In this document: positions 2,254 through 15,291 of the stretch, in pieces
How the letters are laid out: every line of letters begins with the position of its first letter
How positions within the stretch are numbered: the first letter of the stretch is position 1
DNA from: Prosthecobacter algae
GTDB taxonomy: Bacteria > Verrucomicrobiota > Verrucomicrobiia > Verrucomicrobiales > Verrucomicrobiaceae
Direction of reading: 5' to 3'
Assembly: GCF_039542385.1 (NCBI RefSeq)
Contig: NZ_BAABIA010000006.1
Coordinates: 1-64,000 of the forward strand
Length of the DNA stretch: 64,000 bases
The notes under the pieces: generated by a model
Database searches by the model: none
Told to the model about the DNA's origin: nothing
What the model saw: the letters and a program-made list of their open reading frames with translations, nothing else
Translations under genes and position numbers: made by a program

Positions 2254-3321
2254 ATGACCCAGCCGTACTCCTACCCGGAACTGACCGCCGCCCGCGACGA
2301 TATGCGGACCCAGGACGAACTTTACCGCCCAAGCGTCTTCTGGGACGAAGCCTCCTCCCGTATCGTCAACGAACTTTGCGAGAACGGCATCGAAAACTTC
2401 CGCCGCCTGCCCAACACCCTCGGCTTTTTCGTCCCCACTTTCGGCACTCCAGGCAATAGCTTTACCCCTGCGCAAATCGAGGGCCTCACAGCCACGCTTC
2501 AACGTGCGCACCCCGACGCCAAAAAAGCCCACCTTGGCCTGGACCAATTCCTCACTGGCGAAGCCGCCGCTCTGGCCGATTACCGCGTCCTCCTGGCCGC
2601 CGACACCCCCAGTAAACTGCCCCACCTGCATACTTTCTCCGAGAGCAAGGTGGGCGAGCCTGTCGAGCACTTTGAATTCGACGGCCGCTGGTTCTCCCGC
2701 TCCGCCCTCAACTACCTGCTCGGCCTCGCCTTGCTGAAAAAGCACCTGGGCCCCAACGATGTACCCCGCACCGTTCTGGAAATCGGCGGCGGCTTCGGCA
2801 CCCTGGGCGAAGTCATGGCCAGCGCAGGCATCGAAGGCCTGCGTTATGTGGACATCGACATCCCGCCGACCAGCTACGTGGCCCAGCATTACCTCAGCGG
2901 AGCCGTCGGTGCAGACCAAGTCACCACCTACGCCCAGACACGCGACCAGGCCGAGATCGAGATCGAATCCCTCACTCCCATCTCCGTCCTCTGCGCCTGG
3001 CAGATCGAAAAATTGCGCGGCAACGTGGATCTCTTTGTGAACTTCATCTCCTTCCAGGAAATGGAGCCCCCCATCGTCCAAAATTACCTCAACCACGTCG
3101 CCCGGCTGAACACCCGTTGGATTCTTCTCCGCAACATGCGCGAAGGCAAGCAACTGCGCAAAGCCGGAGGCTGGGCCGGGGTGGACACCCCCATCCTCAG
3201 CGACGACTACCTCGCGATGTTGCCCGGCTACGAACTGGTCGAACGCAACGTCCATCCCTTCGGATACCGCACCGTAGACGGCTACCATTCCGAACTCCTG
3301 CTCCTACGCCGCAAAGCCTGA
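2254..3321 (+). CDS. Putative sugar O-methyltransferase (class I SAM-dependent)
   Basis: 355 residues from ATG 2254; a GTG at 2239 is an in-frame alternative. The SAM-binding motif I reads LEIGGGFGTLGE and is followed by an acidic YVDIDIPP strand. The N-terminal half holds helices typical of the long 'putative sugar O-methyltransferase' family often found in O-antigen and nonulosonate clusters. It is the first gene of the operon and ends two bases before pseF, so it is likely to methylate a hydroxyl on the sugar or on its acyl substituent; that role is inference. Codon use here is strongly C-ending, like the native flank and unlike the genes after pseF. Confidence 0.75.
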   Translation: MTQPYSYPELTAARDDMRTQDELYRPSVFWDEASSRIVNELCENGIENFRRLPNTLGFFVPTFGTPGNSFTPAQIEGLTATLQRAHPDAKKAHLGLDQFLTGEAAALADYRVLLAADTPSKLPHLHTFSESKVGEPVEHFEFDGRWFSRSALNYLLGLALLKKHLGPNDVPRTVLEIGGGFGTLGEVMASAGIEGLRYVDIDIPPTSYVAQHYLSGAVGADQVTTYAQTRDQAEIEIESLTPISVLCAWQIEKLRGNVDLFVNFISFQEMEPPIVQNYLNHVARLNTRWILLRNMREGKQLRKAGGWAGVDTPILSDDYLAMLPGYELVERNVHPFGYRTVDGYHSELLLLRRKA

Positions 3322-3323
3322 TC

Positions 3324-4037
3324 ATGAAAAGCCGCACCGTCGCCATCATCCCCGCCCGCGGCGGCAGCAAACGCATCCCCCGCAAAAACATCCGCGACTT
3401 CGGCGGCAAACCCATGATCGCCTGGTCCATCCAAGCCGCCTTGGAAAGTGGCATATTTGATGAGGTCATCGTTTCCACAGATGATCCTGAGATTGCCCAA
3501 GTTGCCCGCGAACATGGAGCCCAGGTTCCTTTTTTGCGTCCCCCTGAAATTTCGGGCGATCAGGTCGGTCTGAATCCCGTCTTAAAGCATGCTCTAAACT
3601 GGTTGGAAATGGATGGCGGCGGATGTCCAAGTTTATTAGGTTGCATCTATGCCACAGCTCCATTTTTGAGGGCCTCAGATCTACGTACGGCCTTTGAGCG
3701 CTTGAACGAAAAACCAGAAGCTGAGTATGTGCTTTCCGTGTGTACGTTTCCCTCGCCCGTGCAGAGAGCCATGACTACCAATGAGGCAGGAGAAATCCGT
3801 TTCATGTGGCCCGAACTGCGACTGACGCCTTCCCAGGCCTTGCAAGAGTGTTTCCATGATGCAGGGCAGTTTGTCATCGGCAGAGCGGCTTCCTTTTTGC
3901 AACAGGAATCCGCGCTCAGTGGCCACTGCCTGCCTTTTGTCCTTCCTCGCTACCGTTGTCAGGACATTGATACGCCCGAGGACTGGGAACAGGCACGCCA
4001 TCTCTTCTATGCCCTGCAATCAACTTCCGCCTCATGA
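3324..4037 (+). CDS. pseF: Pseudaminic acid cytidylyltransferase (CMP-activating)
   Basis: 237 residues. The start IIPARGGSKRIPRKNI is the nucleotide-binding signature of CMP-nonulosonate synthetases, and the DTPEDW near the end is typical of PseF. It would transfer CMP from CTP to the free nonulosonic acid in the cytoplasm, giving the donor for glycosyltransferases. The assignment to pseudaminic rather than sialic acid rests mainly on the adjoining pseG. The start is two bases after the methyltransferase stop, and its end overlaps pseG by four bases (ATGA). Codon use changes within the gene: up to about 3440 nearly every third base is C, and after that A and T are common. Confidence 0.88.
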   Translation: MKSRTVAIIPARGGSKRIPRKNIRDFGGKPMIAWSIQAALESGIFDEVIVSTDDPEIAQVAREHGAQVPFLRPPEISGDQVGLNPVLKHALNWLEMDGGGCPSLLGCIYATAPFLRASDLRTAFERLNEKPEAEYVLSVCTFPSPVQRAMTTNEAGEIRFMWPELRLTPSQALQECFHDAGQFVIGRAASFLQQESALSGHCLPFVLPRYRCQDIDTPEDWEQARHLFYALQSTSAS

Positions 4038-5032
4038 GCACCCAGCCAAGCTTGCTGCTCTTTTTAGTGGAAGCCTCCATCAAGGTCGGCACTGGGCACC
4101 TACGTCGGTGCGCCACACTGGCAAGACATCTCGAAACTTTAGGCTGGCAGACTGAATTTCAAATATTAGGCCATCCCTCTGAATTATTACCGCAAGCAGC
4201 GCTCACCGACATCTTGGGGGACCTGCCATGGCATGCTTGTAACTCACCCGTTTCACGTCCAGTTAAGGCGGTCATTATAGATCTCACCCCGGCACTTCAA
4301 AAAGAGGCTGTGGCATGGTGTCGAGACCAAAAGCTCCCCTGCTTGGCCCTCGACTATTTACAGCCAGATCTGCTACCGGATGAAGTCGTTACTCTACGTG
4401 ATCTCAACGGCCAGATGCAAGAGGCCTTTGCGCGGGCTAAACGCCCACAGGCTTATCATGAAGGCGTGGGTTACGCAATGATGCGTCCTAGCATCCTACA
4501 GCAGCAGGCCCTTGCCCCGCTTCCAGGACAAAACGGATTATTAGACGTCCTGGTGACCCTGGGTGGAGCAGATCCAAAGGGGTTAACGCTAGAAGCCATA
4601 GACCTGCTGCGCCCTTGGCGAAATAGACTGGATCAAGTCATGATCGTGCTCGGGCCTGGAGTCGGTAACGAATTGGAAACACAAGTCCGACACCAAGCGG
4701 CTCAACTCAATTTTAAAACCGTCAAAGCCCCCGCCAACTTTGACGAATTACTCAGCCACACGGACCTCGTTTTATGCAACGGAGGGGGGACAGTTCTGGA
4801 GGCTCTGTTCCTAGGACGCCTAGTTGCCGTGCTCCCACAGACCGATGCAGAAACTGCTTTTAGCGCTCCGTTTTGTGAGCAGCAAGCTTGCGTATGGGCT
4901 CGCGAAATCGGTCAAATCATTGAAACCACCGAGCAAGAGCGGCTTGAGTTCGCCCGCCGTGCTGCCAGTATCGTGGCTGGCAATGGACTGGCCCGCCTCA
5001 CTGGTGTGATTAGTAGTCTCGCCAACCTCTAA
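4034..5032 (+). CDS. pseG: UDP-2,4-diacetamido-2,4,6-trideoxy-L-altropyranose hydrolase
   Basis: 332 residues with a GT-B-like fold. The N-terminal glycine/histidine loop KVGTGHLRRC carries the catalytic histidine motif of PseG (G-x-GH-x-x-R). The C-terminal half has the nucleotide-binding loop VTLGGADPKG and the LVLCNGGGTVLEAL loop that binds the UDP part. The enzyme removes UDP from the sugar before condensation with phosphoenolpyruvate by PseI. It overlaps pseF by four bases, so translation is probably coupled. Length fits the family. PseG is the most specific marker in this cluster for a pseudaminic-type product. Confidence 0.87.
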   Translation: MSTQPSLLLFLVEASIKVGTGHLRRCATLARHLETLGWQTEFQILGHPSELLPQAALTDILGDLPWHACNSPVSRPVKAVIIDLTPALQKEAVAWCRDQKLPCLALDYLQPDLLPDEVVTLRDLNGQMQEAFARAKRPQAYHEGVGYAMMRPSILQQQALAPLPGQNGLLDVLVTLGGADPKGLTLEAIDLLRPWRNRLDQVMIVLGPGVGNELETQVRHQAAQLNFKTVKAPANFDELLSHTDLVLCNGGGTVLEALFLGRLVAVLPQTDAETAFSAPFCEQQACVWAREIGQIIETTEQERLEFARRAASIVAGNGLARLTGVISSLANL

Positions 5033-5046
5033 AACTGACTGCTTTA

Positions 5047-6237
5047 ATGAAAGAAAAGATTCTCTTTGTAGCCGCTGGCTTGGCCCAGGCCCCTGCCATC
5101 AGGGAGGCCCAGTTGATGGACTACGAAGTGGCGGCCATGGATGGAGATGCAACCGCACCAGGGCTGGCTGATGCACCGACCACCTACGTGGCCAATATTC
5201 TTGATGCCCAGGAAATTATTCGTGTGGCACGCGAGTTTGGCGCCCAAGCGATTGTCAGTGTCTGCTGCGACGTCGCGATGGAGGCCGTGGCGATCGCCTG
5301 CCAAGAGTTAAAACTCCCGGGTATTCCTTTGGAGGTGGTGCGTGTTTCGAGGAGCAAGCTTTTGCAGAGAGAGGCTATGCGCCGCGAAGGACTTTTGGTG
5401 CCGCAATTTGCTGCCGTTCAGACCGTCGAAGCCGCATTGGCCACCTGGGACACTTTTAAAACGGCAGCCGGCGTCATCAAACCCGTGGATGCTTCCGGCA
5501 GCCGGGGCGTCAGCTATGTCAATAACCGGGATCAAGTCAGCTCCGCCTTCGAATTGGCAAAGCAGAATTCTCGCTCAGGTCAGGTGATGGTGGAATCCTT
5601 CATGCCAGGCATTGAATACAGTGTAGAAGCATGGGTGATCGGCACCGAGGTACATGTCCTAGCCACCTCCATGAAGGTGCGCACCCAGCCCCCTTACCTT
5701 TTGGACCGTCAGGTACATTTCCCAGACGATTTGTCTCCCGAACATAGAGAGACCATGATCGCCCATGCAATTCGTGCCATTCAGGCTTGTGGCTTCCGTG
5801 ATTGCCCGGTGCATTTGGAGTGCATTTATTCCCCAGAGGGCCCTATGATTGTGGAACTCGCCGCACGCGGGGCGGGCTTCAAGGTTTTCACGGAGATGCT
5901 GCCACGTGTGACCGGCCTTTCCACCGCCAGGGCCAGCATCCAGGCAGCTTTGGGGGAAGTGCCTGAGCTGCCAGAGCAACACCAAGGCCAGAGTGCTTCA
6001 CTGGTTTTCATTGACCCGACTCCTGGTGAATTTGTCCAAGCGGAAGGTTTAGATGCAGCTCGTGCTGTGCCCGGTGTTTCTGAGGTAGTCATTTATCCAA
6101 AGCCAGGGCAAGCTCTCCACGAGTTGCGCTCTGGGTCTGACCGCGCGGGGCATATCCTCACCTACTCTACCGACCCGACAACCTGTCGTGCCGCAGCCCA
6201 GGCCGCATTGAATCACATCCGACTCATCATCCGCTGA
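5047..6237 (+). CDS. ATP-grasp domain ligase
   Basis: 396 residues. An N-terminal Rossmann-like domain (ILFVAAGLAQAPAIREA) leads into an ATP-grasp fold. Visible features are the lysine-containing strand VIKPVDASGSRGVSYV (the glycine loop over ATP), VESFMPGIEYSVEAWV and the metal-binding strand VELAARGAGF. The layout is that of PurK/carbamoyl-phosphate-synthase-like carboxylate-amine ligases. Such enzymes activate a carboxylate as acyl-phosphate and join it to an amine or thiol. Inside a nonulosonate operon the simplest role is to attach an acyl group to a sugar amine, but this is inference. The next gene starts on the last base of its stop codon. Confidence 0.82.
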   Translation: MKEKILFVAAGLAQAPAIREAQLMDYEVAAMDGDATAPGLADAPTTYVANILDAQEIIRVAREFGAQAIVSVCCDVAMEAVAIACQELKLPGIPLEVVRVSRSKLLQREAMRREGLLVPQFAAVQTVEAALATWDTFKTAAGVIKPVDASGSRGVSYVNNRDQVSSAFELAKQNSRSGQVMVESFMPGIEYSVEAWVIGTEVHVLATSMKVRTQPPYLLDRQVHFPDDLSPEHRETMIAHAIRAIQACGFRDCPVHLECIYSPEGPMIVELAARGAGFKVFTEMLPRVTGLSTARASIQAALGEVPELPEQHQGQSASLVFIDPTPGEFVQAEGLDAARAVPGVSEVVIYPKPGQALHELRSGSDRAGHILTYSTDPTTCRAAAQAALNHIRLIIR

Positions 6238-7022
6238 TGATTATTGACGCCCATACTCATATCCATCCAGACCCAAAAGGTTTCGGTACCCATAAAGACG
6301 CCAGTGCCGAAACTTTGGTGGCGAATCTTAAAGCCGCTGGAATCTCCAAAGCCGTTGTTTTGGCCATCGAGCCAGACATGGGCAATGCCTACGTCGCACA
6401 AAAGTGTGCAGAGCATCCCGAATTGATCGGGTTCGTCTCTCTCAATCCCCTCGAACCCGAATCCGTCACTGAAGGGCTAACCAATTATGTTCGCAGCGGC
6501 AAGATGCATGGGGTCAAACTGCATCCGCGTCGCCAAGGCTTCACCATTGAGCATACCCGGGAAGTGATCCAACTTGTAGAACAGGCGGCCGAACTGCGTG
6601 TGCCCATCCTCTTCGATGCCTTCCCCTACGGAGACACTTATTATAAAATCCAAGAAGTGCGGATGATCCATGAAGTCGCGCAAGCCGTGCCCCAGGCAAA
6701 CATCATCATGGCTCACACAGGTGGCATTCATGTGATGGATGCTCTGATGGTGGTGAAGGGTAATCGCAATGTGGTGGTGGATGTGTCGTTCACCCCTTTT
6801 TGGTTTGCAGGTTCCACCGTTTATTCCGATCTCATTTTTGTCCTGCGTAAGCTAGGGGCAAACCGTATCCTTCATGGATCCGACAGTCCTGAGGTACCAG
6901 TCGGGCGCTCCGTAGAAGACACCCTCGCACTTTGCGATCAATGTGGCTTCAACGACGGTGACCGCAGTCTCATCTTTGCTGGCAATGCTCAGCGTCTTCT
7001 TTCCAAAGCCTCCGCCCAATGA
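6237..7022 (+). CDS. Amidohydrolase-superfamily protein (Amidohydro_2 type TIM barrel)
   Basis: 261 residues. It opens with the metal-binding DAHTHIH (residues 4-10), then shows GVKLHPRRQ, the barrel strand IIMAHTGG and the terminal ILHGSDSPE with the catalytic aspartate. This set fits the PF04909-type metal-dependent hydrolases and decarboxylases, including lactonases. Substrate is unknown. In this operon it could open a lactone of a hydroxy acid or remove an N-acyl group; neither is shown. The ATG shares its A with the stop of the ATP-grasp gene (TGATG), and the end overlaps the next gene by four bases, so it is firmly part of the operon. Confidence 0.8.
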   Translation: MIIDAHTHIHPDPKGFGTHKDASAETLVANLKAAGISKAVVLAIEPDMGNAYVAQKCAEHPELIGFVSLNPLEPESVTEGLTNYVRSGKMHGVKLHPRRQGFTIEHTREVIQLVEQAAELRVPILFDAFPYGDTYYKIQEVRMIHEVAQAVPQANIIMAHTGGIHVMDALMVVKGNRNVVVDVSFTPFWFAGSTVYSDLIFVLRKLGANRILHGSDSPEVPVGRSVEDTLALCDQCGFNDGDRSLIFAGNAQRLLSKASAQ

Positions 7023-7648
7023 CACCTGACGAAAAGCAACGTATCATTCAGCGTTACAACGAACGCCTCAGCAACCTGGGTGAAACCGCCCAGGCCCTGG
7101 GCTGGCGGGATAGTTCGCAACAGCGACTTCGTTTTCGCATCCTCGCTGAAGTGGCAGATCTCAGTGGCTGTTCAGCCCTGGATATCGGCTGTGGTTTCGG
7201 AGACTTGCTTGACTACATGACTGAAGCTGGCGCCCAAAACGTGAATTACACAGGCACAGACTTAAATCCCGCGCTCATTGAAGTGGCCCAAAAACGTCAC
7301 CCCGGAGCGAGTTTTCTTGCGACGACAGATCTCAGTCAATTCCCTGACGCATCCCAAGATTACGTATTTCTCAGCGGCTTGTTCAATTTCAAAATTGAAG
7401 ACAATGAAGGCTTCATGCACGACACTGTGCGCGAAAGTTTTCGCATTTGCCGCAAGGCCGTTGCGTTTAACCTTCTCGGTAGTTACGTGGATTTTAAAGA
7501 AGAGCATCTGTTCTATCACGCCGAGCAGGAAATGTTTCACTTCGCTAAAAGTCTCTCACGCTTCGTGACTTTGCGGGCGGATTATCCGCTCTATGAGTTT
7601 ACCGTTTATCTCCACAAGCCTGAAGCTGTCAAAGCCCTGCACGCATGA
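7019..7648 (+). CDS. Class I SAM-dependent methyltransferase
   Basis: 209 residues. Motif I is ALDIGCGFGDLLDYM, followed by the acidic TGTDLNPALIEVA strand that binds the SAM ribose and the post-motif YVFLSGLFNFK. The single-domain layout is typical of small-molecule methyltransferases. The start overlaps the amidohydrolase stop by four bases, and the end overlaps the next methyltransferase gene by four bases. The substrate is not readable; its place between an amidohydrolase and the aldolase suggests the acyl precursor or the sugar. Codon use is mixed, in keeping with pseG to pseI and unlike the flanks. Confidence 0.82.
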   Translation: MTPDEKQRIIQRYNERLSNLGETAQALGWRDSSQQRLRFRILAEVADLSGCSALDIGCGFGDLLDYMTEAGAQNVNYTGTDLNPALIEVAQKRHPGASFLATTDLSQFPDASQDYVFLSGLFNFKIEDNEGFMHDTVRESFRICRKAVAFNLLGSYVDFKEEHLFYHAEQEMFHFAKSLSRFVTLRADYPLYEFTVYLHKPEAVKALHA

Positions 7649-8886
7649 GAAAGCTCATTGAGACTCTTTGGACCCCGGTGGCCTGCGATGTGTGTGGCGC
7701 TGAAGAGACGGCCCTAAGCACACTAGGCACTCGCATCGGACGCATCATTCAGAAGCATCATGACTACACCTGGCGTCATGAAGACGTGCAATGCACGCAG
7801 TGCGGATTCGTCTTTAATCGCCTGAGGCCAACGGCCGAGTTCCTTCACGACTACTACACGGACTGCTGGCCCATCGCATCCACCTCCATTGACATTGTCC
7901 CAGACTTCGACGTGGCCGTACGCTTAGAGCTCCTCCATCGCTGGCTCAAACCTAAAGCGCGCGTTTATGAGATCGGTGATAAGTTAGGTGAGTTCCACAC
8001 CGCCCTCCTCAAAGCTGGCTACGATGTCGCAGGTGATGACGTCATGGCCGAAAGCAGTGAGCGTGGTGAGTGGCTGGATGGGCTCTTTCGGCGGGGTTGC
8101 GTGGCAGTTCCCCCCGTCGCTATGAAGCAGGCCTTCGATGCAGTCCTGGCTTATTTCGTCGTCGAACACCTGGCCAATCCTCGGGATTGGTTACGCTCCA
8201 TGCGCGGGCTTTTGGCCCAAGACGGCGTGCTCGTGATTGAAGTCCCACATTTGGTTAGGCATCCCAAAGATGCCTTGATGCACGAACACTTCCTTTACCT
8301 GACGCCTGAGTCTCTCTCTGCCCTGGTGCAGGAAGCGGGGTATGAAGTGGTGGAAATCCGGGACACTGGTGCCAGTCGTGTTTTCGGTTTTTATCTTGTC
8401 GCTCGGCGAGTCGAGACATCTCCACTCATCGCCATTGAGCCATTGCAGGATCAAGCGGCTGAGTTGCAAGCCGCCTACCAGCGAGGGCGTGCACTTTTGA
8501 ATCATGCTCAAGATAACCTCGCCACTAGCGCGGACTTGATCACCCAAGCGGTAGAGGCAGCAGACACGCCCGTTCGCGTTTGCTTTTTTGGGGCCAATCA
8601 AACCGCCACCGAGATCGCAACCCACATTGGTGTGGAGCTTAAACAAAAGGCCATCAAGATCCTGCCCTATGATAACTCCGATGCGAAAACCGGCACTCAT
8701 TTAGAAGGCTTTGAGCTCAGTGTCAAAAAACCGGACCCATCCGAATTTCACCCTTCCGTCCTGCATGTTTGTGTGATTTGCTCTCGCGGCTGGACCCAGG
8801 CCATCGCGAGTCAGATCCGTCAGTTCGGTCTCCCTCGTTTCATTCTTGTGGATGGAGCTTCTGGTGAACTGCTCCCCAATCATTGA
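7645..8886 (+). CDS. Zinc-ribbon methyltransferase with C-terminal Rossmann-like domain (sugar C-methyltransferase layout)
   Basis: 413 residues in three parts. An N-terminal zinc site is formed by CDVCG (about 15-19) and CTQCG (about 51-55). A central methyltransferase domain follows. The C-terminal domain (about 310-410) begins VRVCFFGANQTATEIATHI, which looks like the dinucleotide-type fold found after TylC3/NovU-like sugar C-methyltransferases. Motif I is poor: EIGDKLGEF replaces the usual EIGCGxG, so cofactor binding may be altered. Conserved catalytic residues of that family cannot be confirmed by eye. It is translationally coupled to the preceding gene and is followed by a 42-base gap before the aldolase gene. 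Confidence 0.75.
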   Translation: MRKLIETLWTPVACDVCGAEETALSTLGTRIGRIIQKHHDYTWRHEDVQCTQCGFVFNRLRPTAEFLHDYYTDCWPIASTSIDIVPDFDVAVRLELLHRWLKPKARVYEIGDKLGEFHTALLKAGYDVAGDDVMAESSERGEWLDGLFRRGCVAVPPVAMKQAFDAVLAYFVVEHLANPRDWLRSMRGLLAQDGVLVIEVPHLVRHPKDALMHEHFLYLTPESLSALVQEAGYEVVEIRDTGASRVFGFYLVARRVETSPLIAIEPLQDQAAELQAAYQRGRALLNHAQDNLATSADLITQAVEAADTPVRVCFFGANQTATEIATHIGVELKQKAIKILPYDNSDAKTGTHLEGFELSVKKPDPSEFHPSVLHVCVICSRGWTQAIASQIRQFGLPRFILVDGASGELLPNH

Positions 8887-8928
8887 CCAGTATCTCACCC
8901 TCATCATTTTATAAAGTATCTTTGCTCC

Positions 8929-10860
8929 ATGGAAACACCCGCACAAATCCTCGACTGTACCATCCGTGATGGCAGTTATGTGGTGGACTACCAGTTCACC
9001 GTGGAGGACACCTTCATTGTCGCGCATGGAATTGCTGCGGCTGGCATCCGCCATATTGAAGTGGGTCACGGGCTTGGGCTGAACGCTCAAAATTGTGGCA
9101 AAGGCAATGCAGCCATCAGTGATATTGAATACATCACCGCGGCCAAAGCTGCCGTATCGGACAAAGCCCTCATTGGCAGCTTTTTCATTCCTGGAATTGG
9201 CACAGAAGATAGCCTGCGCGCCGCGGCAGATGCTGGACTTGGTTTCATCCGTCTCGGCATAGATGTGGATGACCACACGAAGCTGGAACCTTTCGTCAAA
9301 CTGGCCAAGTCTCTCAAACTGGAAGTCTGGGGGAATATGATGAAGTCCTATCTGCTTCCTCCAGATTCATTTGCCGAAGTCAGTCAGCAAGTGGGTGAAT
9401 TTGGGGTGGATGTCGTGGCCATTGTGGACTCTGCCGGCGGCATGACTCCCAATGACGTTGCCGCTTATACCCAAGCCACGCTGGCCCGCAGTTCACGGGT
9501 GCCTTTGGCCTTCCATGGCCACAATAACCTGACTCTCGCGGTGGCCAATTGCCTCCGTTTTGTCGAATGTGGGGGTGTTTATGTGGATGGCAGTCTGGCG
9601 GGTCTAGGGCGTAGTGGCGGCAATGCCGCAACAGAACTCCTCGCCGCCGTTCTCTCCCAGCGGAACAGCCTAGCTTGGCCAGTCGACTGGGAACGCTTGG
9701 TTGAATTTGCCGATTCGGTCATGCAGTTCTGCGTGCCCGACCACGCCCGTCCGCGTGCCTCGGAAATTGCGACCGGATTAAACTACTTCCATTCCAGCTT
9801 CAGCCCCGTGGTGGAAAAGGCCAACGCTGACGCCAAAGCTCCCCTCTACCGCACGATCTTACGTCTCCCCAAAGACTCGCGAAAAAAGGTCTCCCAAGAG
9901 GTCGCTATGGCTGCCGCCCAGCAGGCTGCTTCAGAACCACGCCATAGCAGTCAGATCTCAGATCTACCGAGCAATGGCGATTCACTGGAACGTTTGCAGC
10001 CGACATCACTTACGGCGCTTGCGGACCGTCTTCGTGTGCAAAAGGGTAAGAGCCCCCAAGCACGCGTGGTAACCATCGCCCACACCCCGGACCTCATTGG
10101 TGCCCGCATCGGTCCCGTACGCAGCAGCCGGATCAGCATTGTAGCTCATGTTGAAGTGAGCACCGCTGAATCCCTCACAGAAGTCCAAAACGCCCTCGCC
10201 GATTCTTGTGATTTCTGGCTCCTGGATAAGCGCCTGGAAAAGTTGAGCAGCCATCGTCTCTCTCAGCCTCAGTTCCTGTATGATGATGATGCAGTCATTG
10301 CCCAGGCGGTCGCAGATGCACTTCAAATGCTCCAAGCCACTCAGGTCTCCGTGATCGGCGATGATGCTGGGCAGCGAGCAGCCATCGGCCAGATCACTCA
10401 AGTGGTGGGAAATCATATTCCGGTGGATGCGCTGGTCACCAGTGATTCCAAATCTCCAGCTACCAGAGATGATTTGCAGCAGGTGCGCGACGGAGGAGCT
10501 GTCCTCATGGTGCGAGCCCGGGCGCTGACAGAAGAGGCATTTGCGGAAGCTCGTAGTCGAGGTATTCAATTGTGGCGGCTGGACTGTGGCCCAGCCCTCG
10601 TTGCTGAGGCTGAGCGTCTCATTCATACTTATGATCGTTTCCACCTCGCTGCCGGGCAGGTTAACTTGGATGCCCATACACACATCGTCGCCGGCGGAAC
10701 AGTCGGGCAGGCAGGAGACCTCGTGGTAGATCATCTCAAGTCTCCACGCTTCATCTTAGGGGAAGCCGATGGCCAAGGCGGCATCCGGCCATTGTCAGAA
10801 GCCACACGCTCACGCACGCTGGCAGCGCAACAATGGATCGTGGACCAATGGGGCCTGTAA
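8929..10860 (+). CDS. 4-hydroxy-2-oxovalerate-aldolase-like (HMGL/DmpG) protein fused to an unidentified C-terminal domain
   Basis: 643 residues, about twice the length of a free aldolase. Residues 1 to about 300 are a DmpG/HMGL-type TIM barrel. It starts ILDCTIRDGSY (catalytic aspartate/arginine strand), has VAIVDSAGGMTP, and FHGHNNLTLAVAN with the two metal-binding histidines, then DGSLAGLGRSGGNAATE. These enzymes make or split 2-oxo-4-hydroxy acids from pyruvate and an aldehyde. After a Ser/Gln-rich linker near residues 330-360 comes a domain of about 280 residues containing a strand-loop such as VSVIGDDAGQRAAIG; it may be Rossmann-like but I do not recognise it. It sits directly before pseI, with an 18-base gap from the stop. 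Confidence 0.8.
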   Translation: METPAQILDCTIRDGSYVVDYQFTVEDTFIVAHGIAAAGIRHIEVGHGLGLNAQNCGKGNAAISDIEYITAAKAAVSDKALIGSFFIPGIGTEDSLRAAADAGLGFIRLGIDVDDHTKLEPFVKLAKSLKLEVWGNMMKSYLLPPDSFAEVSQQVGEFGVDVVAIVDSAGGMTPNDVAAYTQATLARSSRVPLAFHGHNNLTLAVANCLRFVECGGVYVDGSLAGLGRSGGNAATELLAAVLSQRNSLAWPVDWERLVEFADSVMQFCVPDHARPRASEIATGLNYFHSSFSPVVEKANADAKAPLYRTILRLPKDSRKKVSQEVAMAAAQQAASEPRHSSQISDLPSNGDSLERLQPTSLTALADRLRVQKGKSPQARVVTIAHTPDLIGARIGPVRSSRISIVAHVEVSTAESLTEVQNALADSCDFWLLDKRLEKLSSHRLSQPQFLYDDDAVIAQAVADALQMLQATQVSVIGDDAGQRAAIGQITQVVGNHIPVDALVTSDSKSPATRDDLQQVRDGGAVLMVRARALTEEAFAEARSRGIQLWRLDCGPALVAEAERLIHTYDRFHLAAGQVNLDAHTHIVAGGTVGQAGDLVVDHLKSPRFILGEADGQGGIRPLSEATRSRTLAAQQWIVDQWGL

Positions 10861-10877
10861 ACTTTGAATCATAACTC

Positions 10878-11942
10878 ATGACAAACGCTGAATTTTTAGA
10901 CACCCTGAACCAGCCACCGGGCACACGCCCGCCACTCATCGTCGCAGAGCTTTCAGGCAATCATAATCAGTCTTTGGACCGGGCTCTGCAACTCATAGAT
11001 GCAGCCGCTGATTGTGGTGTGGATGCGATCAAACTTCAAACTTACACGGCAGACACCATCACCCTGGATGCGGATAGCGAAGAGTTCTTTGTTCGCAAAC
11101 CAGGCTCCGTGTGGGATGGTCGTAGCCTGCACAGTCTATATGCTGAAGCCCACACTCCCTGGGAATGGCATGCTGCGATGGTGGAACGAGCCACGGAAAG
11201 AGGCCTTGCTTGGTTCAGCAGTCCCTTTGATTTCAGCGCGGTGGATTTTCTAGAAACGTTGAATCCCCCTTGCTATAAAATTGCTTCGCCTGAGATCGTG
11301 GACCTGCCTTTGATTAAAAAGTGTGCACAAACAGGCAGACCTCTGATCATTTCCAGCGGCATGGCCACGGTGGCCGAAATTGAAGCCGCTGTAAAAACGG
11401 CTCGTGAGAATGGGGCTCCCCAAATCGTGCTGCTTAAATGCACCACGGACTACCCAGCCTGCCCAAAGACATCGAACCTCCGCACCATGGCACACCTGGG
11501 CCAGCTCTTTGGCTGCCTCACTGGCGCTTCGGATCATACCTTGGGTATTGGAGCTTCCGTGGCAGCCGCAGCCCTGGGCGCTTCTCTCATTGAAAAGCAC
11601 CTGACTTTAGCTCGTGCGGACGGTGGGCCAGATTCCCACTTCAGTCTGGAGCCGTCTGAGATGAAGGCCTTAGTCACAGAATGCCGCGCCGGTTGGGAAT
11701 CTGTGGGCTCCATCAGCTACGGTCCAGCCGAAACGGAGCGTGGCTATTTACGTGGCCGCCGCAGCCTCTACATCACACAGGATATAAAAGCTGGTGAAGT
11801 GCTCACAGCGCAAAATATGCGCAGCATTCGCCCTGGATTTGGATTATCGCCAAAACACTATGAATCCCTGCTCGGCAAAAAGACAGCCAGCGATGTCAAA
11901 CGTGGCACCGCCCTCTCCTGGAACTTGGTAAATCAGGACTAA
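10878..11942 (+). CDS. pseI: Pseudaminic acid synthase (NeuB family, with SAF domain)
   Basis: 354 residues. The NeuB-type barrel begins IVAELSGNHNQSLDRA and continues with DAIKLQTYTADTIT, YKIASPEIVDLPLI and LKCTTDYPA, all conserved in sialic, legionaminic and pseudaminic acid synthases. The C-terminal 60 residues (RRSLYITQDIKAGEVLTAQN) form the antifreeze-like SAF domain. The SGNHNQ motif and the presence of pseG favour PseI over NeuB or LegI. It condenses phosphoenolpyruvate with the 6-carbon sugar freed by PseG. It completes the three-gene late pathway (G, I, F) within this operon. Confidence 0.87.
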   Translation: MTNAEFLDTLNQPPGTRPPLIVAELSGNHNQSLDRALQLIDAAADCGVDAIKLQTYTADTITLDADSEEFFVRKPGSVWDGRSLHSLYAEAHTPWEWHAAMVERATERGLAWFSSPFDFSAVDFLETLNPPCYKIASPEIVDLPLIKKCAQTGRPLIISSGMATVAEIEAAVKTARENGAPQIVLLKCTTDYPACPKTSNLRTMAHLGQLFGCLTGASDHTLGIGASVAAAALGASLIEKHLTLARADGGPDSHFSLEPSEMKALVTECRAGWESVGSISYGPAETERGYLRGRRSLYITQDIKAGEVLTAQNMRSIRPGFGLSPKHYESLLGKKTASDVKRGTALSWNLVNQD

Positions 11943-11971
11943 AATCACCTTCTCTGAGCGGCTTTAAAATT

Positions 11972-13474
11972 ATGGCGAACATTTCGAGAACTGAAGTCCT
12001 AGGAAGAGCGACCATCACGGCGTTAGTCGCGTGTGCGGCCATCTGGGGAATGTTTCATCAGAGGCCCTTCGATTACATTGATCAGACTCGTTTGGACATC
12101 ATCGGGTTATTCCGTGTGACTTATGGGTTCATGATCGTGCTGCGCTTACTTCTCGTTCGCCCAGCCGCACCTATGGTCCTGGGATGGCGCCAGACATCCC
12201 ACGTGCTCCGCTGTATTTACCTTTGGATGATTCCTGCGGTCATGATGATGGTGGGCTTCCTTACCCCTGTGGCCATATTGGCTCACATCTTGTTTGGTTC
12301 CATCATTTGGCGGCGTTCGAAGGTTTACTCCCTTGAAGATGTCCTCATTCGTTCAGCAGGTTTTTGTCTCCTTTTCCTGAACTCACATTTGAGCTTTTCC
12401 GTGGATAAATGGCTCGGGCTCGATTTTGGCTTGAGCACCCCTTCTCTAATTGGGTTGAACTTCTATTGTTGGACGTTTGGCATCCTCATGCTTTCCGCTG
12501 GCTGGGAAAAGCTTTGTTCCCCCATGTGGCGACGCGGTTTGGGATTCTTTTATTTTATGTCTCTACGGCATTGGGTAAAACCCAGTTTTCATTGGGCCAA
12601 TAAAAGTCGTGCGGCTTCGGTTGTCATGAGTTGGGCCACCATTGCTACCCAGTTTTTCCTGGTCTTGGCTCTGTTAGTCCCCTCTATCCGCTGGGTGTCA
12701 TTCCCGATGTCGCTCGGCTTTGCCATCTCGCTTTGTTTGATGGTTTATCTCGCTTTCCTCAGCACACAGACGCTGCTCAGTTCCGCCTTTCTTTTCGTCA
12801 TCGAGTTCAGCCCGTATTTCAATGGTGGTCCTGATTTCGCATTGCCCTCAGGCCCCATCGGGACGCAGGCACCTTTGTTGTGGGTCGCCTGCTTTTTCCT
12901 TCTGCTGGCGGTCATAAGTTGCTCAGGTCTCGTTAAACTGCGCGGTGGTTTGATCACCACTTTGAGCGCCTGGACAATTGCCCTTCGTCCCATCATGATT
13001 TTCGTGGAAACCCACATCTACGGTATCTATATTTTCCGCCAAGTGGCCAAATTACCGGGGCGAGAAAAAGCTGTTCTTGAGAACTGGGACATCAATGGCA
13101 TCCCATGCGGGCTACAGGCTTGGCACCCACGCACGATCGCAGGCACCACTTATCGAGTGACGGATTATTGCATCGCTGTAAATGAAAATGTCCTTGATCG
13201 TGCGGCTGACCGTGCGGAATCCATCGTTGATCTCGGCTATGCAGCTTTTCTAGAGTTGTCTTCGTCTGAAAGAAAAGAAGTCACCGAAATTGACTTCCAA
13301 GTCCGCGTCTTCAATCCTGAAGAAACGTTTGTCCCAGATACCTCCCATTGGTTGTCCGCTCCCTGGCAGTCCATCGGCGTCATCACAGGATTTCCAGACC
13401 ATCCTCACTTTGTTCCTGGCGGTAAACCGCCCGATTACCGAAAAACTTTGCGCTGGCCTGTCACCTTCCAGTGA
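11972..13474 (+). CDS. Polytopic membrane protein, HTTM-like (vitamin-K-dependent carboxylase-related family)
   Basis: 500 residues. The first about 350 hold roughly eight to ten hydrophobic helices. The stretch LSAGWEKLCSPMWRRGLGFFYF resembles the conserved core of HTTM (horizontally transferred transmembrane) proteins. The last about 150 residues are soluble (EKAVLENWDINGIPCGLQAW and onward). The family is uncharacterised in most bacteria; its eukaryotic relative is gamma-glutamyl carboxylase. It begins 29 bases after pseI, keeps the same mixed codon use, and is the last gene of that composition. A role in transferring or modifying the surface glycan at the membrane is inference. Confidence 0.6.
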   Translation: MANISRTEVLGRATITALVACAAIWGMFHQRPFDYIDQTRLDIIGLFRVTYGFMIVLRLLLVRPAAPMVLGWRQTSHVLRCIYLWMIPAVMMMVGFLTPVAILAHILFGSIIWRRSKVYSLEDVLIRSAGFCLLFLNSHLSFSVDKWLGLDFGLSTPSLIGLNFYCWTFGILMLSAGWEKLCSPMWRRGLGFFYFMSLRHWVKPSFHWANKSRAASVVMSWATIATQFFLVLALLVPSIRWVSFPMSLGFAISLCLMVYLAFLSTQTLLSSAFLFVIEFSPYFNGGPDFALPSGPIGTQAPLLWVACFFLLLAVISCSGLVKLRGGLITTLSAWTIALRPIMIFVETHIYGIYIFRQVAKLPGREKAVLENWDINGIPCGLQAWHPRTIAGTTYRVTDYCIAVNENVLDRAADRAESIVDLGYAAFLELSSSERKEVTEIDFQVRVFNPEETFVPDTSHWLSAPWQSIGVITGFPDHPHFVPGGKPPDYRKTLRWPVTFQ

Positions 13475-13494
13475 CCCGAATTAGCGCCTTGATC

Positions 13495-15291
13495 ATGACA
13501 CGGACGCTTTTCATCTATGGCTCTCTTGCTCCGCGGGCTTGTCGGGCGGAAGTGGGTTTGAGCAGGGGGCTTGGGGAGCTTTTTGTGCTTGAGGCGGAGA
13601 CTTGGCTGCCTGTAGAGGAGAGGTTTGACGCGGGGGTATGGATCAATGCACTGGATATTTTTTCACCGGAGGATCAGGTGAAGGCGGACAGGCTGACCGA
13701 TGATGTTTTGGAAACTTACCTGCGGGATTTGCCTGTGGTGGAGGGTGTGCCTTTGCATCGGGCTTTCAGGGCGGCTTGTTTGGGGATGACTTGCCGGAAG
13801 TGGATCAATCCATATTTGGTTAATCTGGAGATGGCCCGGCGAGTTTTTGAGGGGGCAAGGTACGATCGCCTGGTGGTGGCTCCGGGAGCGGGAATCAGTT
13901 TTCGGGCTTGGCGACAGGTGGCGGAGCAACATGGGCTACCTGTTGTGTTTTTACCTCAAGAGCCGCGACCTTGGTCTTTGAAGCGTCGCTGGCAACGGCT
14001 GGTCAATCGATGGAAAAAGAAGCCTGCCCCGGTGGCGACAGCCTTGCAGGGGAAGCTTGGGGGACAGCGAGCTTCGGTGCTGTGCTGCAGCATTCGGCTT
14101 TCGCGGATGCTGCAGGGGCAGCCGGAGTCGTTGGACCTGGACTGGGCCTATGTTTCGGATGAGCTTCTGGGCAAGCCGGAAGGGGCGGAGTTTGAGCGGC
14201 TTAAATCTGGCTATGCTGAATGGTGGCGGAAATGTGCGGACGAACTGCGAGCTTTGCTGAAGGATAACCCGGGCGATCCGCGATCCATTTTGTTAGACCT
14301 GGGCGAGGGGCAGTCGCGCGAAACGTATCCGCGTTTCGCCTGGAAGTATTTGAGGGCCCGCGATCACCTTGCCCAGGCGCGGCCAAAGCTGCTGCTGTGC
14401 GATACCCAGGAAGGCAGTGATGAACGGGCCTGGAGTCTGGCGGCCAGTGAGCTGGGCATCCCCGTGGCGGCCTACACCTATGACCACATTCCTCAGCCGC
14501 GTTTCAGCTTTAGTCCGGACTGGCTGCTGTGTGACAGCGGACGCAATGCCCACATTGCCCAATTGCGAGGACATCAGGCGGATCGCATCGTGCCGGTGGC
14601 CTCCCATCGGCGGCCAGCGGCGGCGCTCAAGGAGCGCGATGGTGAGAGCAGCAAAATCCTTCTGTATGCGGACAGCTACTATTCAGGGACTTCGGCGACG
14701 GTGGAGCCGCAGCGCAGCTATCTGCATTATCGGCTGCTGGTGGAAACGGCCCGCCAAATGCCAGGGCATCAGTTCCATTTAAAGTTTCATCCCTTGAGGG
14801 ATCGTAAGAAGGTGGAGCAGTGCTTTATCGGCATGGATGAGGACGAACTGTATGTGCGCATGCGTTACATCGAGTCGCTGAATCCGCCGCCCAATGTGAA
14901 GATGATTCCGCCAGAGGAAGACATGCTGGTGCATCTTCAGAAGGCTGGCGTGCTGCTGAATTCAAACTCCACGGCCGGGCTGGAGGCCTTTGTGCTGGGG
15001 GTGCCGGTGATCTTTCTTTATGAGCCAAATACGGAGCTGGGCTTTCCGCTGATTCATGAGCATGGGGCCTGCCTGGTGGCGACGACTTCGGACTCACTCG
15101 CGGCTGAGGTGGCCAGATTGGAAAACGATCCCGCCCATGCGGCGGCCCAGATCCGCAACCAGCGCCGGTATGTGGATGAATTTTACTGGTCGTCTGGTCG
15201 CCAGAGTCTAACCGAAGGTATTCAAGCCATCTTGAGGGAGCAAACGGCCGCCCACATCGCCTCCACAGGAACTGCAGAGGCGGATCCGTAG
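13495..15291 (+). CDS. Capsule/surface-polysaccharide GT-B-like protein
   Basis: 598 residues from ATG 13495 (an in-frame GTG at 13471 would overlap the preceding stop). No signal peptide or membrane segment is evident. The C-terminal half shows a GT-B style acceptor/donor fold: HFHLKFHPLRDRKK, then a VLLNSNSTAGLEAFVLGVPVIFL loop and YEPNTEL, as in capsule polysaccharide synthases and lipid-A-disaccharide-like transferases. A role in making or exporting a surface glycan fits the neighbours. Codon use switches here to many G-ending codons, unlike the Pse operon. Its last 70 bases overlap the end of the convergent heptosyltransferase-like gene. Confidence 0.65.
   Translation: MTRTLFIYGSLAPRACRAEVGLSRGLGELFVLEAETWLPVEERFDAGVWINALDIFSPEDQVKADRLTDDVLETYLRDLPVVEGVPLHRAFRAACLGMTCRKWINPYLVNLEMARRVFEGARYDRLVVAPGAGISFRAWRQVAEQHGLPVVFLPQEPRPWSLKRRWQRLVNRWKKKPAPVATALQGKLGGQRASVLCCSIRLSRMLQGQPESLDLDWAYVSDELLGKPEGAEFERLKSGYAEWWRKCADELRALLKDNPGDPRSILLDLGEGQSRETYPRFAWKYLRARDHLAQARPKLLLCDTQEGSDERAWSLAASELGIPVAAYTYDHIPQPRFSFSPDWLLCDSGRNAHIAQLRGHQADRIVPVASHRRPAAALKERDGESSKILLYADSYYSGTSATVEPQRSYLHYRLLVETARQMPGHQFHLKFHPLRDRKKVEQCFIGMDEDELYVRMRYIESLNPPPNVKMIPPEEDMLVHLQKAGVLLNSNSTAGLEAFVLGVPVIFLYEPNTELGFPLIHEHGACLVATTSDSLAAEVARLENDPAHAAAQIRNQRRYVDEFYWSSGRQSLTEGIQAILREQTAAHIASTGTAEADP

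Follow-up and report, generated by a model that had tools for sequence, protein, structure and literature searches.

The window analysed here is a stretch of 64,000 nucleotides from Prosthecobacter algae (contig NZ_BAABIA010000006.1, positions 1 to 64,000), and our subject is a co-directional run of 11 genes on its + strand (2254-15291), in which genes for the late steps of pseudaminic acid (Pse) synthesis are interleaved with an ATP-grasp ligase, an amidohydrolase, methyltransferases and an aldolase fusion. The first ten genes lie within 2254-13474, all as open reading frames (ORFs). An earlier note on this DNA had placed pseF, pseG and pseI in one run with these genes, and the frames and families are as it stated. 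The three 4-base overlaps that it named (pseF/pseG, amidohydrolase/MT1 and MT1/MT2) are real; a fourth joins the last two ORFs, the ATP-grasp and amidohydrolase genes overlap by 1 base, and the remaining intergenic gaps measure 2-42 bases. The genes are listed below with their best family matches.

2254-3321, +, NanM-type putative sugar O-methyltransferase (TIGR04371, 283 bits, cut-off 44)
3324-4037, +, PseF, cytidine monophosphate (CMP)-pseudaminic acid synthetase (TIGR03584, 276 bits, cut-off 206)
4034-5032, +, divergent PseG-like uridine diphosphate (UDP)-sugar hydrolase (TIGR03590, 68 bits, cut-off 153.6)
5047-6237, +, ATP-grasp carboxylate-amine ligase with LAL_C2 (PF18603 LAL_C2 and PF13535 ATP-grasp_4)
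6237-7022, +, amidohydrolase-superfamily enzyme (Amidohydro_2 PF04909, 89 bits)
7019-7648, +, S-adenosylmethionine (SAM) methyltransferase MT1 (Methyltransf_11)
7645-8886, +, SAM methyltransferase MT2 with a Cys-rich N-terminus (Methyltransf_23, 50 bits)
8929-10860, +, DmpG-like pyruvate aldolase fused to a dehydrogenase-like region (HMGL-like, 102 bits)
10878-11942, +, PseI, pseudaminic acid synthase (TIGR03586, 470 bits, cut-off 340)
11972-13474, +, open frame of 500 amino acids (aa), probably membrane-bound to judge from its sequence; no Pfam match at E 0.01
13471-15291, +, ORF of 606 aa, last of the run, which by eye alone looks like a capsule-type glycosyltransferase; no Pfam match at E 0.01

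Below, G-numbers denote genomes and L-numbers the loci compared; G000 is the window's genome, and G010 and G020 were placed in the same genus.

PseB, PseC and PseH

The earlier note had listed pseB, pseC and pseH as absent. For the first two this is ruled out, as both lie on the same contig (99552-102649), about 84 kb beyond the end of the run and above their family cut-offs (PseB at G000:C6:99552-100520, 515 bits, cut-off 408; PseC at G000:C6:101507-102649, 522 bits, cut-off 424), with a methyltransferase gene between them. In a Prosthecobacter metagenome-assembled genome (L050) the genes form a single run, pseB-MT-pseC-nanMT-pseF-pseG-ATPg-AH-MT1-MT2-ALD-pseI. With these two genes present on the contig here, and within the single run of L050, the operon represents the later half of a complete Pse pathway minus PseH.

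For PseH the claim of absence stood, in that two profiles did not find it. The best match to TIGR03585 in G000 scored 28.5 bits against a cut-off of 93.1, and that cut-off was passed in none of 18 genomes (17 with aldolase-clade loci plus G019, not all of them with ATP-grasp in the locus). We rejected this profile alone as proof of absence, since PseC is above its cut-off in 22 of 96 relatives and none of those 22 passes TIGR03585. In 8 of the 19 PseC loci read, PseG is fused to a GNAT domain. These fusions, single ORFs of ~470-570 aa that join PseG to a PseH-like GNAT, occur in Prosthecobacter relatives (L110, L111, L115, L118, L120, L121, L122 and L124), and TIGR03585 at its cut-off misses their GNAT half.

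The second profile, for PseH-like GNATs, was built from the GNATs of six such fusions and those of L064/L074, and was searched in 25 genomes, of which the eight that gave seeds match by construction (G005, G025, G044, G055, G035, G033, G107 and G109). At E 1e-6 it had no match in any of six genomes (G000, G010, G019, G042, G046 and G050; four lineages of the same family) whose Pse locus includes ATP-grasp and gave no PIG-L match, PIG-L absence being judged in the locus and not genome-wide. Nor was a match found at this threshold in G056, which is without ATP-grasp. Best matches reached just 30-34 bits in G018, G034, G037 and G041, and 78-282 bits in the other 14 of the 25 genomes, eight of them seed genomes. 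Counted by locus, 8 of the 11 informative Pse loci without ATP-grasp have PseG-GNAT fusions, versus GNAT in 0 of 4 ATP-grasp lineages (p 0.026), in a two-way table that omits L108, L112, L113, L116 and L125 (truncated or with early genes only; L112 shows a GNAT piece).

A second arrangement combines the aldolase module with a PIG-L deacetylase (L047, L048, L064 and L074; the L048 contig has no captured ATP-grasp gene), and here a PseH-like GNAT is kept in 4/4 genomes (G020, G054, G107 and G109), of which G107 and G109 (L064/L074) are profile seeds with the GNAT inside the cluster. Removal of the acetyl group by PIG-L and subsequent re-acylation would explain why these genomes retain a GNAT.

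PseG as a possible reporter of the acyl group

The substrate of PseG is the N4-acylated UDP sugar, and the enzyme's sequence may therefore follow the acyl group. In the PseG-GNAT loci the TIGR03590 scores are high (L110 236 bits, L121 222, L122 220, L120 213, L118 211, L111 211, L124 187 and L115 172), and in the ATP-grasp or module loci they are low (window 68, L045 63, L046 62, L109 61, L055 38, L047 92, L048 91, L074 91, L145 100, L064 115, L123 126 and L119 127). The cut-off of 153.6 is thus exceeded in 8/8 fusion loci versus 0/12 ATP-grasp or module loci (p 8e-6), and, when all full-length PseG are taken, in 8/8 versus 1/16 others (p 1.2e-5); both p-values are nominal because the window, L045 and L046 belong to a single lineage. 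Two partial PseG (L065, 58 bits; L066, 99 bits) were left out of these counts. Among loci with neither ATP-grasp nor GNAT, one of four is over the cut-off (L117 91 bits, L107 113, L114 133 and L061 190), and a score below it was accordingly rejected as a marker of every non-GNAT locus on account of L061. A WbqC gene in L107 and L117 and a ketoacyl-synthase-III-type gene in L114 perhaps represent other acylation routes.

Ligase, amidohydrolase and methyltransferases

ATP-grasp ligases of the L-amino acid ligase (LAL) kind join carboxylates to amines. The window ligase has both expected domains (PF18603, 70.4 bits over 29.4; PF13535, 55.1 bits over 27), and its best solved relative is the L-amino acid ligase 3vot (E 4e-18). 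K104, K145, E183 and R274 are identical in 20/20 aligned relatives, and E270 in 19/20. We propose that it is an N-acyl ligase in the place of PseH. An octopine-dehydrogenase-type gene (PF02317, 136 bits) adjoins ATP-grasp in the Pse locus of G042 (L109:1453-3827) and is a possible different acid supplier. Elsewhere, on a Parabacteroides distasonis plasmid (L143:7964-10965), two ATP-grasp genes adjoin genes for a sugar transferase and a DegT-type aminotransferase; the first ATP-grasp gene gives the best plasmid match to the window ligase by E-value among the matches listed (32%, 1e-53). RraA-like aldolase/oxaloacetate decarboxylase genes (PF03737) lie near ATP-grasp in two Omnitrophota loci (L054:1071-1748 and L055:6746-7426).

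The amidohydrolase has HxH, HTGG and GSD motifs, and we propose a lactonase or hydratase activity for it. A single ORF of 479 aa in L054 combines an amidohydrolase with an MT1-type methyltransferase, which suggests that they catalyse neighbouring steps. MT1 often accompanies the ATP-grasp and aldolase genes. The architecture of MT2 resembles that of sugar C-methyltransferases; kinship of MT2 with the 415-aa methyltransferase of a Solidesulfovibrio cluster (L145) was considered and dropped, as there is no similarity. Homologues of the sugar O-methyltransferase (2254-3321) stand beside pse genes in L113, which starts at a contig end so that its neighbourhood is incomplete, and, as a 158-aa piece, in L117; the aldolase search of relatives found no clade aldolase in the genomes of these two loci (G041 and G037). 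Since its homologues occur beside pse genes in genomes without a clade aldolase, the substrate of this enzyme is perhaps the sugar and not the acyl chain.

The aldolase and its fused domain

DmpG-type aldolases join pyruvate to aldehydes. In the window protein the aldolase part takes up residues 1 to ~313, followed by a putative dehydrogenase-like two-domain region (~355-643). The aldolase part passed the PRK08195 subfamily (235 bits over 229), fell below the TIGR03217 equivalog cut-off (200 bits versus 286) and is kin of the solved DmpG-type structures 1nvm/4lrs. D14, H196 and H198 are invariant in 4/4 aligned sequences, and we take this Asp and the HxH to be metal-binding in DmpG. After RDGS, the window aldolase and 4/4 aligned sequences have Tyr17 where 1nvm has a His, presumably the catalytic base. 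RDGSY or RDGNY occurs in most clade aldolases, one of the two patterns in the aldolase scan having itself required that Tyr, and a few have no motif match.

When the whole fusion was searched with Foldseek, the 50 matches listed were barrel enzymes aligned to the aldolase part. For the C-terminal 313 residues, L045/L046 contain close copies and L051, L052, L053 and L055 weakly similar sequences (42-63 bits), and a search with the fused domain matched in 3/145 genomes. Standalone kin adjoin NeuB-family synthases in two Omnitrophota (L127:1477-2619 and L128:386-1498); these match several NAD(P)-binding Pfam families and have an intact GAGNLG loop. The window domain has no Rossmann GxGxxG loop (it reads VIGDDAG there) and no Pfam match. 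An AlphaFold2 model of the C-terminal part (predicted local distance difference test score, pLDDT, 82) aligned with glutamate dehydrogenase (Z 10.4, root-mean-square deviation 4.7, 216 aligned) and dipicolinate synthase A (Z 9.5, deviation 2.3 over 101), and carbamoyltransferases tied with the dehydrogenases (Z 9.5-9.8), the arrangement being a common one. We read the fused domain as dehydrogenase-derived and of uncertain activity.

Recurrence of the gene set

Neighbourhoods were counted in 30 aldolase-clade loci, comprising the window and L050-L078 (29 from one aldolase-domain contig scan; truncated contigs were kept), and, as controls, around 14 distant HMGL paralogues encoded in the window's genome or in relatives. 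The hidden Markov models for the counts were seeded from the aldolase-clade loci themselves. Among the 30, ATP-grasp was found in 13, amidohydrolase in 14, MT1 homologues in 9 and NeuB/PseI in 10, and any of NeuB, PseF, PseG or PseB in 13, versus 0/14 for each of these in the controls. Because of the seeding, and because the controls are mostly same-genus orthologues and include one contig of 10 kb, p-values for this comparison are nominal.

Seven of the 13 ATP-grasp loci also have a nonulosonate gene, and they span five phyla: the window, L050 and L056 (Verrucomicrobiota), L055 (Omnitrophota), L064 (Bacteroidota), L065 (Planctomycetes) and L074 (Gammaproteobacteria), some of these phyla being assigned from the organism names. 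Chryseolinea L064 and Thiobius L074 have most of one run in common, pseB-C-F..NeuB-ATPg-ALD-MT1-AH-PseG..PIGL, and their gene order agrees over about eleven kb, save around the gene that precedes NeuB and in the position of the GNAT.

Two further observations concern these neighbourhoods. Directly 3' of pseF, a 358-aa protein with no Pfam match is conserved in L064 (5887-6963) and L074 (5866-6942). In four Acidobacteriota loci (L061, L066, L067 and L069) clade aldolases whose C-terminal region is of another kind are encoded at a distance of ~4-8 kb from a PseI-like gene, and no ATP-grasp match was found within the stretch examined.

Proposed pathway

The chemistry of the aldolase and the ligase, combined with a free C4 amine, would lead to an N7-acyl Pse. 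We propose, with a probability of roughly one half, that the operon makes pseudaminic acid carrying a custom carboxylic acid, not acetyl, at N7. According to this model, PseB and PseC, encoded ~84 kb away, would make the UDP-4-amino sugar, and the ATP-grasp ligase, in the stead of PseH, would join the acid to its 4-amine, which later becomes N7. The acid itself would arise from the DmpG-like aldolase, acting on pyruvate and a hydroxyaldehyde to give a 4-hydroxy-2-oxo acid whose C2 would then be reduced, perhaps by the fused dehydrogenase-like domain or by a different enzyme; the amidohydrolase may keep the acid open or process it, and MT1 and/or MT2 may methylate it. A PseG of changed specificity would then remove UDP, PseI would condense the sugar with phosphoenolpyruvate and PseF would activate it with CMP. 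As a guess, the chain is glyceraldehyde-derived with the skeleton of 2-keto-3-deoxygluconate (KDG), for which nonulosonate residues would be expected to weigh 436.17 + n x 14.016 Da.

The finished sugar would be passed on to a surface polysaccharide, which we regard as its likely destination. Flagellin was rejected as the target in G000, where the flagellin N-domain has no match. Heptosyltransferase-type and group-1 glycosyltransferase-type genes come after the run on the opposite strand, and promoter and terminator scans gave counts near chance.

The earlier note had held that an aldolase-made acid is methylated and tied by the ATP-grasp enzyme to a nonulosonate amine. This core idea gains support from the recurrence of the set against 0/14 controls, from the GNAT result (0/6) and from the PseG scores (0/12), and with the corrections made above it is the interpretation that we favour. 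Several findings count against it. Six of the 13 ATP-grasp loci have no NeuB, PseF, PseG or PseB (L051 and L052, Hydrogenedentota; L054, Omnitrophota; L059, Acidobacteriota; L075 and L076, Bacteroidota), L052 and L054 being contigs of ~5 kb. The note had named homologues lying mainly away from nonulosonate genes as damaging to its idea; with 7/13 beside such genes and 6/13 not, that objection is escaped only in part. Moreover, 17 of the 30 clade loci have no ATP-grasp match, some on short contigs, and ten of these 17 are Acidobacteriota whose aldolases have another C-terminal region. On a Pseudoroseomonas plasmid (L144), aldolase, amidohydrolase and ATP-grasp stand beside a transaminase with no NeuB. 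Two ATP-grasp genomes, neither with a PIG-L seen in the locus, have GNAT matches: G101 (134 bits, on another contig than L055) and G108 (180 bits, where locus L065 ends before a PIG-L could be visible). Together with the PIG-L genomes G107, G109, G020 and G054, these led us to reject a strict exclusivity of ATP-grasp and GNAT. Likewise, PIG-L and GNAT occur without ATP-grasp in L110, L118 and L122, so that the link between PIG-L and the aldolase module is not exclusive. The PseG score is no marker of ATP-grasp itself, as L107, L114 and L117 are below the cut-off and L061 is above it. The fused domain was rejected as a proven reductase, its dinucleotide loop being absent, and the relatives in our statistics are not independent of each other.

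Because the set also occurs without NeuB beside aminotransferases (PseC-like ones in L059, L075 and L076), the cassette is probably used for amino sugars at large, including nonulosonates. One may go further and speculate, tentatively and with clear doubt, that it is a mobile cross-phylum cassette that replaces PseH, or with PIG-L exchanges the acetyl group, so that nonulosonic and other amino sugars receive aldol-derived hydroxy-acyls, and that this is the sort of pathway still lacking for acyl groups like the 2-methoxy-4,5,6-trihydroxyhexanoyl found in Treponema denticola.

Three other explanations bear on the custom N7 acid. According to the first, which we consider unlikely, the ligase attaches an amino acid, the 4-hydroxy-2-oxo acid of the aldolase being transaminated to give an aminoacyl-pseudaminic acid. 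The LAL_C2 domain of the ligase and its L-amino acid ligase relative point this way, as do class I/II aminotransferases near the aldolase in L055 and L076, and these too count against our proposal. However, Pfam and NCBIfam scans found no class I/II aminotransferase among the operon's proteins, and the methyltransferases, together with a nitrogen-free C9H16O7 moiety described for Shewanella (PMC3765264), point to hydroxy acids.

A second explanation, for which we see rather little room, moves the acyl change to another position or stage, either N5 or free or CMP-activated pseudaminic acid. The pairing of PIG-L and GNAT in G020, G054, G107 and G109 does suggest acyl exchange, possibly late. In loci of the window's type, however, with no GNAT and no PIG-L in the locus, the C4 amine should stay free, and these loci have a PseG that scores below its cut-off, an enzyme whose step precedes that of PseI. 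The third, an ordinary diacetylated Pse made by an unrecognised acetyltransferase, with ligase, aldolase and methyltransferases serving another surface sugar, can draw on the set without NeuB beside other aminotransferases (L144, L059, L075 and L076) and on weak GNAT matches in G000 (best 28.5 bits), but it is improbable given that the genes are interleaved in one operon in three Prosthecobacter genomes, that PseG is below its cut-off and that GNAT matches at E 1e-6 number 0/6.

Implications

To our knowledge, the synthesis of many N-acyl groups of bacterial surface nonulosonic acids is largely unknown. If the custom N7 acid is correct, the locus offers marker genes for finding such sugars, with exact masses predicted, and, for an orphan glycan, a route that can be tested. 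A further warning is that a pseI or pseF annotation alone does not mean Pse5Ac7Ac.

Comparison with known systems

Compared with the canonical PseB-C-H-G-I-F pathway, the window's genome has PseB, PseC, PseI and PseF all above family cut-offs, and differs in the lack of a PseH match, a PseG far below its cut-off and the extra ligase, aldolase, amidohydrolase and methyltransferases. With DmpG/BphI, the window aldolase shares relatedness along the whole barrel and the RDG and HxH motifs; it differs in its Tyr for His, its score below TIGR03217, its other C-terminal fusion and its place in a sugar-synthesis operon.

The flagellin glycan of Treponema denticola was reportedly described (by Kurniyati in 2017) as a pseudaminic-type sugar with a 2-methoxy-4,5,6-trihydroxyhexanoyl group at N7, and we know of no genes for this acyl group. 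Such a chain is what an aldol of pyruvate and glyceraldehyde would give after reduction and methylation. Adding C7H12O5 to a mono-N-acetyl Pse residue (274.116) yields a computed mass of 450.185, which fits the 450.2 Da given for the T. denticola glycan in PMC9481697. This agreement in mass and skeleton is suggestive, not proof; the T. denticola glycan is on flagellin, whereas the window's genome has no flagellin match.

The earlier note knew of no described pathway with this set. In titles and abstract openings of the open-licence PMC literature, among the matches listed, we found no description of an aldolase and ATP-grasp route to nonulosonates, and the available parts of PMC7371886 and PMC13317340 mention neither ATP-grasp nor aldolase. 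The statement needs qualifying in view of the sfmABCDE operon of Shewanella oneidensis, which, according to PMC3765264, pairs an ATP-grasp protein (SO_3265) and a methyltransferase with a mono-N-acetyl nonulosonate and also encodes a protein PseI-like in its N-terminal domain. In that account PseB and PseC homologues were detected, no clear orthologue turned up for PseH, PseG, PseI or PseF, and the flagellin sugar is likely a mono-N-acetyl nonulosonate of 274 Da with a methylatable moiety of 236/250/264 Da; mutation of the ATP-grasp gene gave a pronounced flagellin mass shift, slightly smaller than in other sfm mutants (PMC3765264). The likeness to the window lies in an ATP-grasp ligase and methyltransferase in the locus and a PseH that was not found. 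The difference is that sfm, as described there, has a thiamine pyrophosphate (TPP) enzyme and a 3-oxoacyl-acyl carrier protein (ACP)-type reductase, is without aldolase and amidohydrolase and targets flagellin (PMC3765264), whereas neither of those two enzymes is among the ten window proteins scanned in Pfam and NCBIfam. The sfm operon is the closest experimental precedent for our locus and the sole one found for ATP-grasp-modified nonulosonates.

A plasmid of Solidesulfovibrio (L145) also bears an sfm-like cluster. It comprises transketolase halves, FabG, methyltransferase, ATP-grasp, pseF, pseB and pseC, and its ATP-grasp is 27% identical to the window ligase over 386 columns. It thus seems that the ligase slot is constant while the acid supply varies. 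This would amount to a modular logic, with an ATP-grasp enzyme in the PseH slot and exchangeable acid suppliers, namely the aldolase here, a TPP enzyme with a reductase in the Shewanella type and perhaps an opine-dehydrogenase-type enzyme in G042. Measured against these systems, the ATP-grasp-modified kind of nonulosonate was already known, and what the window would add is the aldolase-amidohydrolase route and its spread across phyla.

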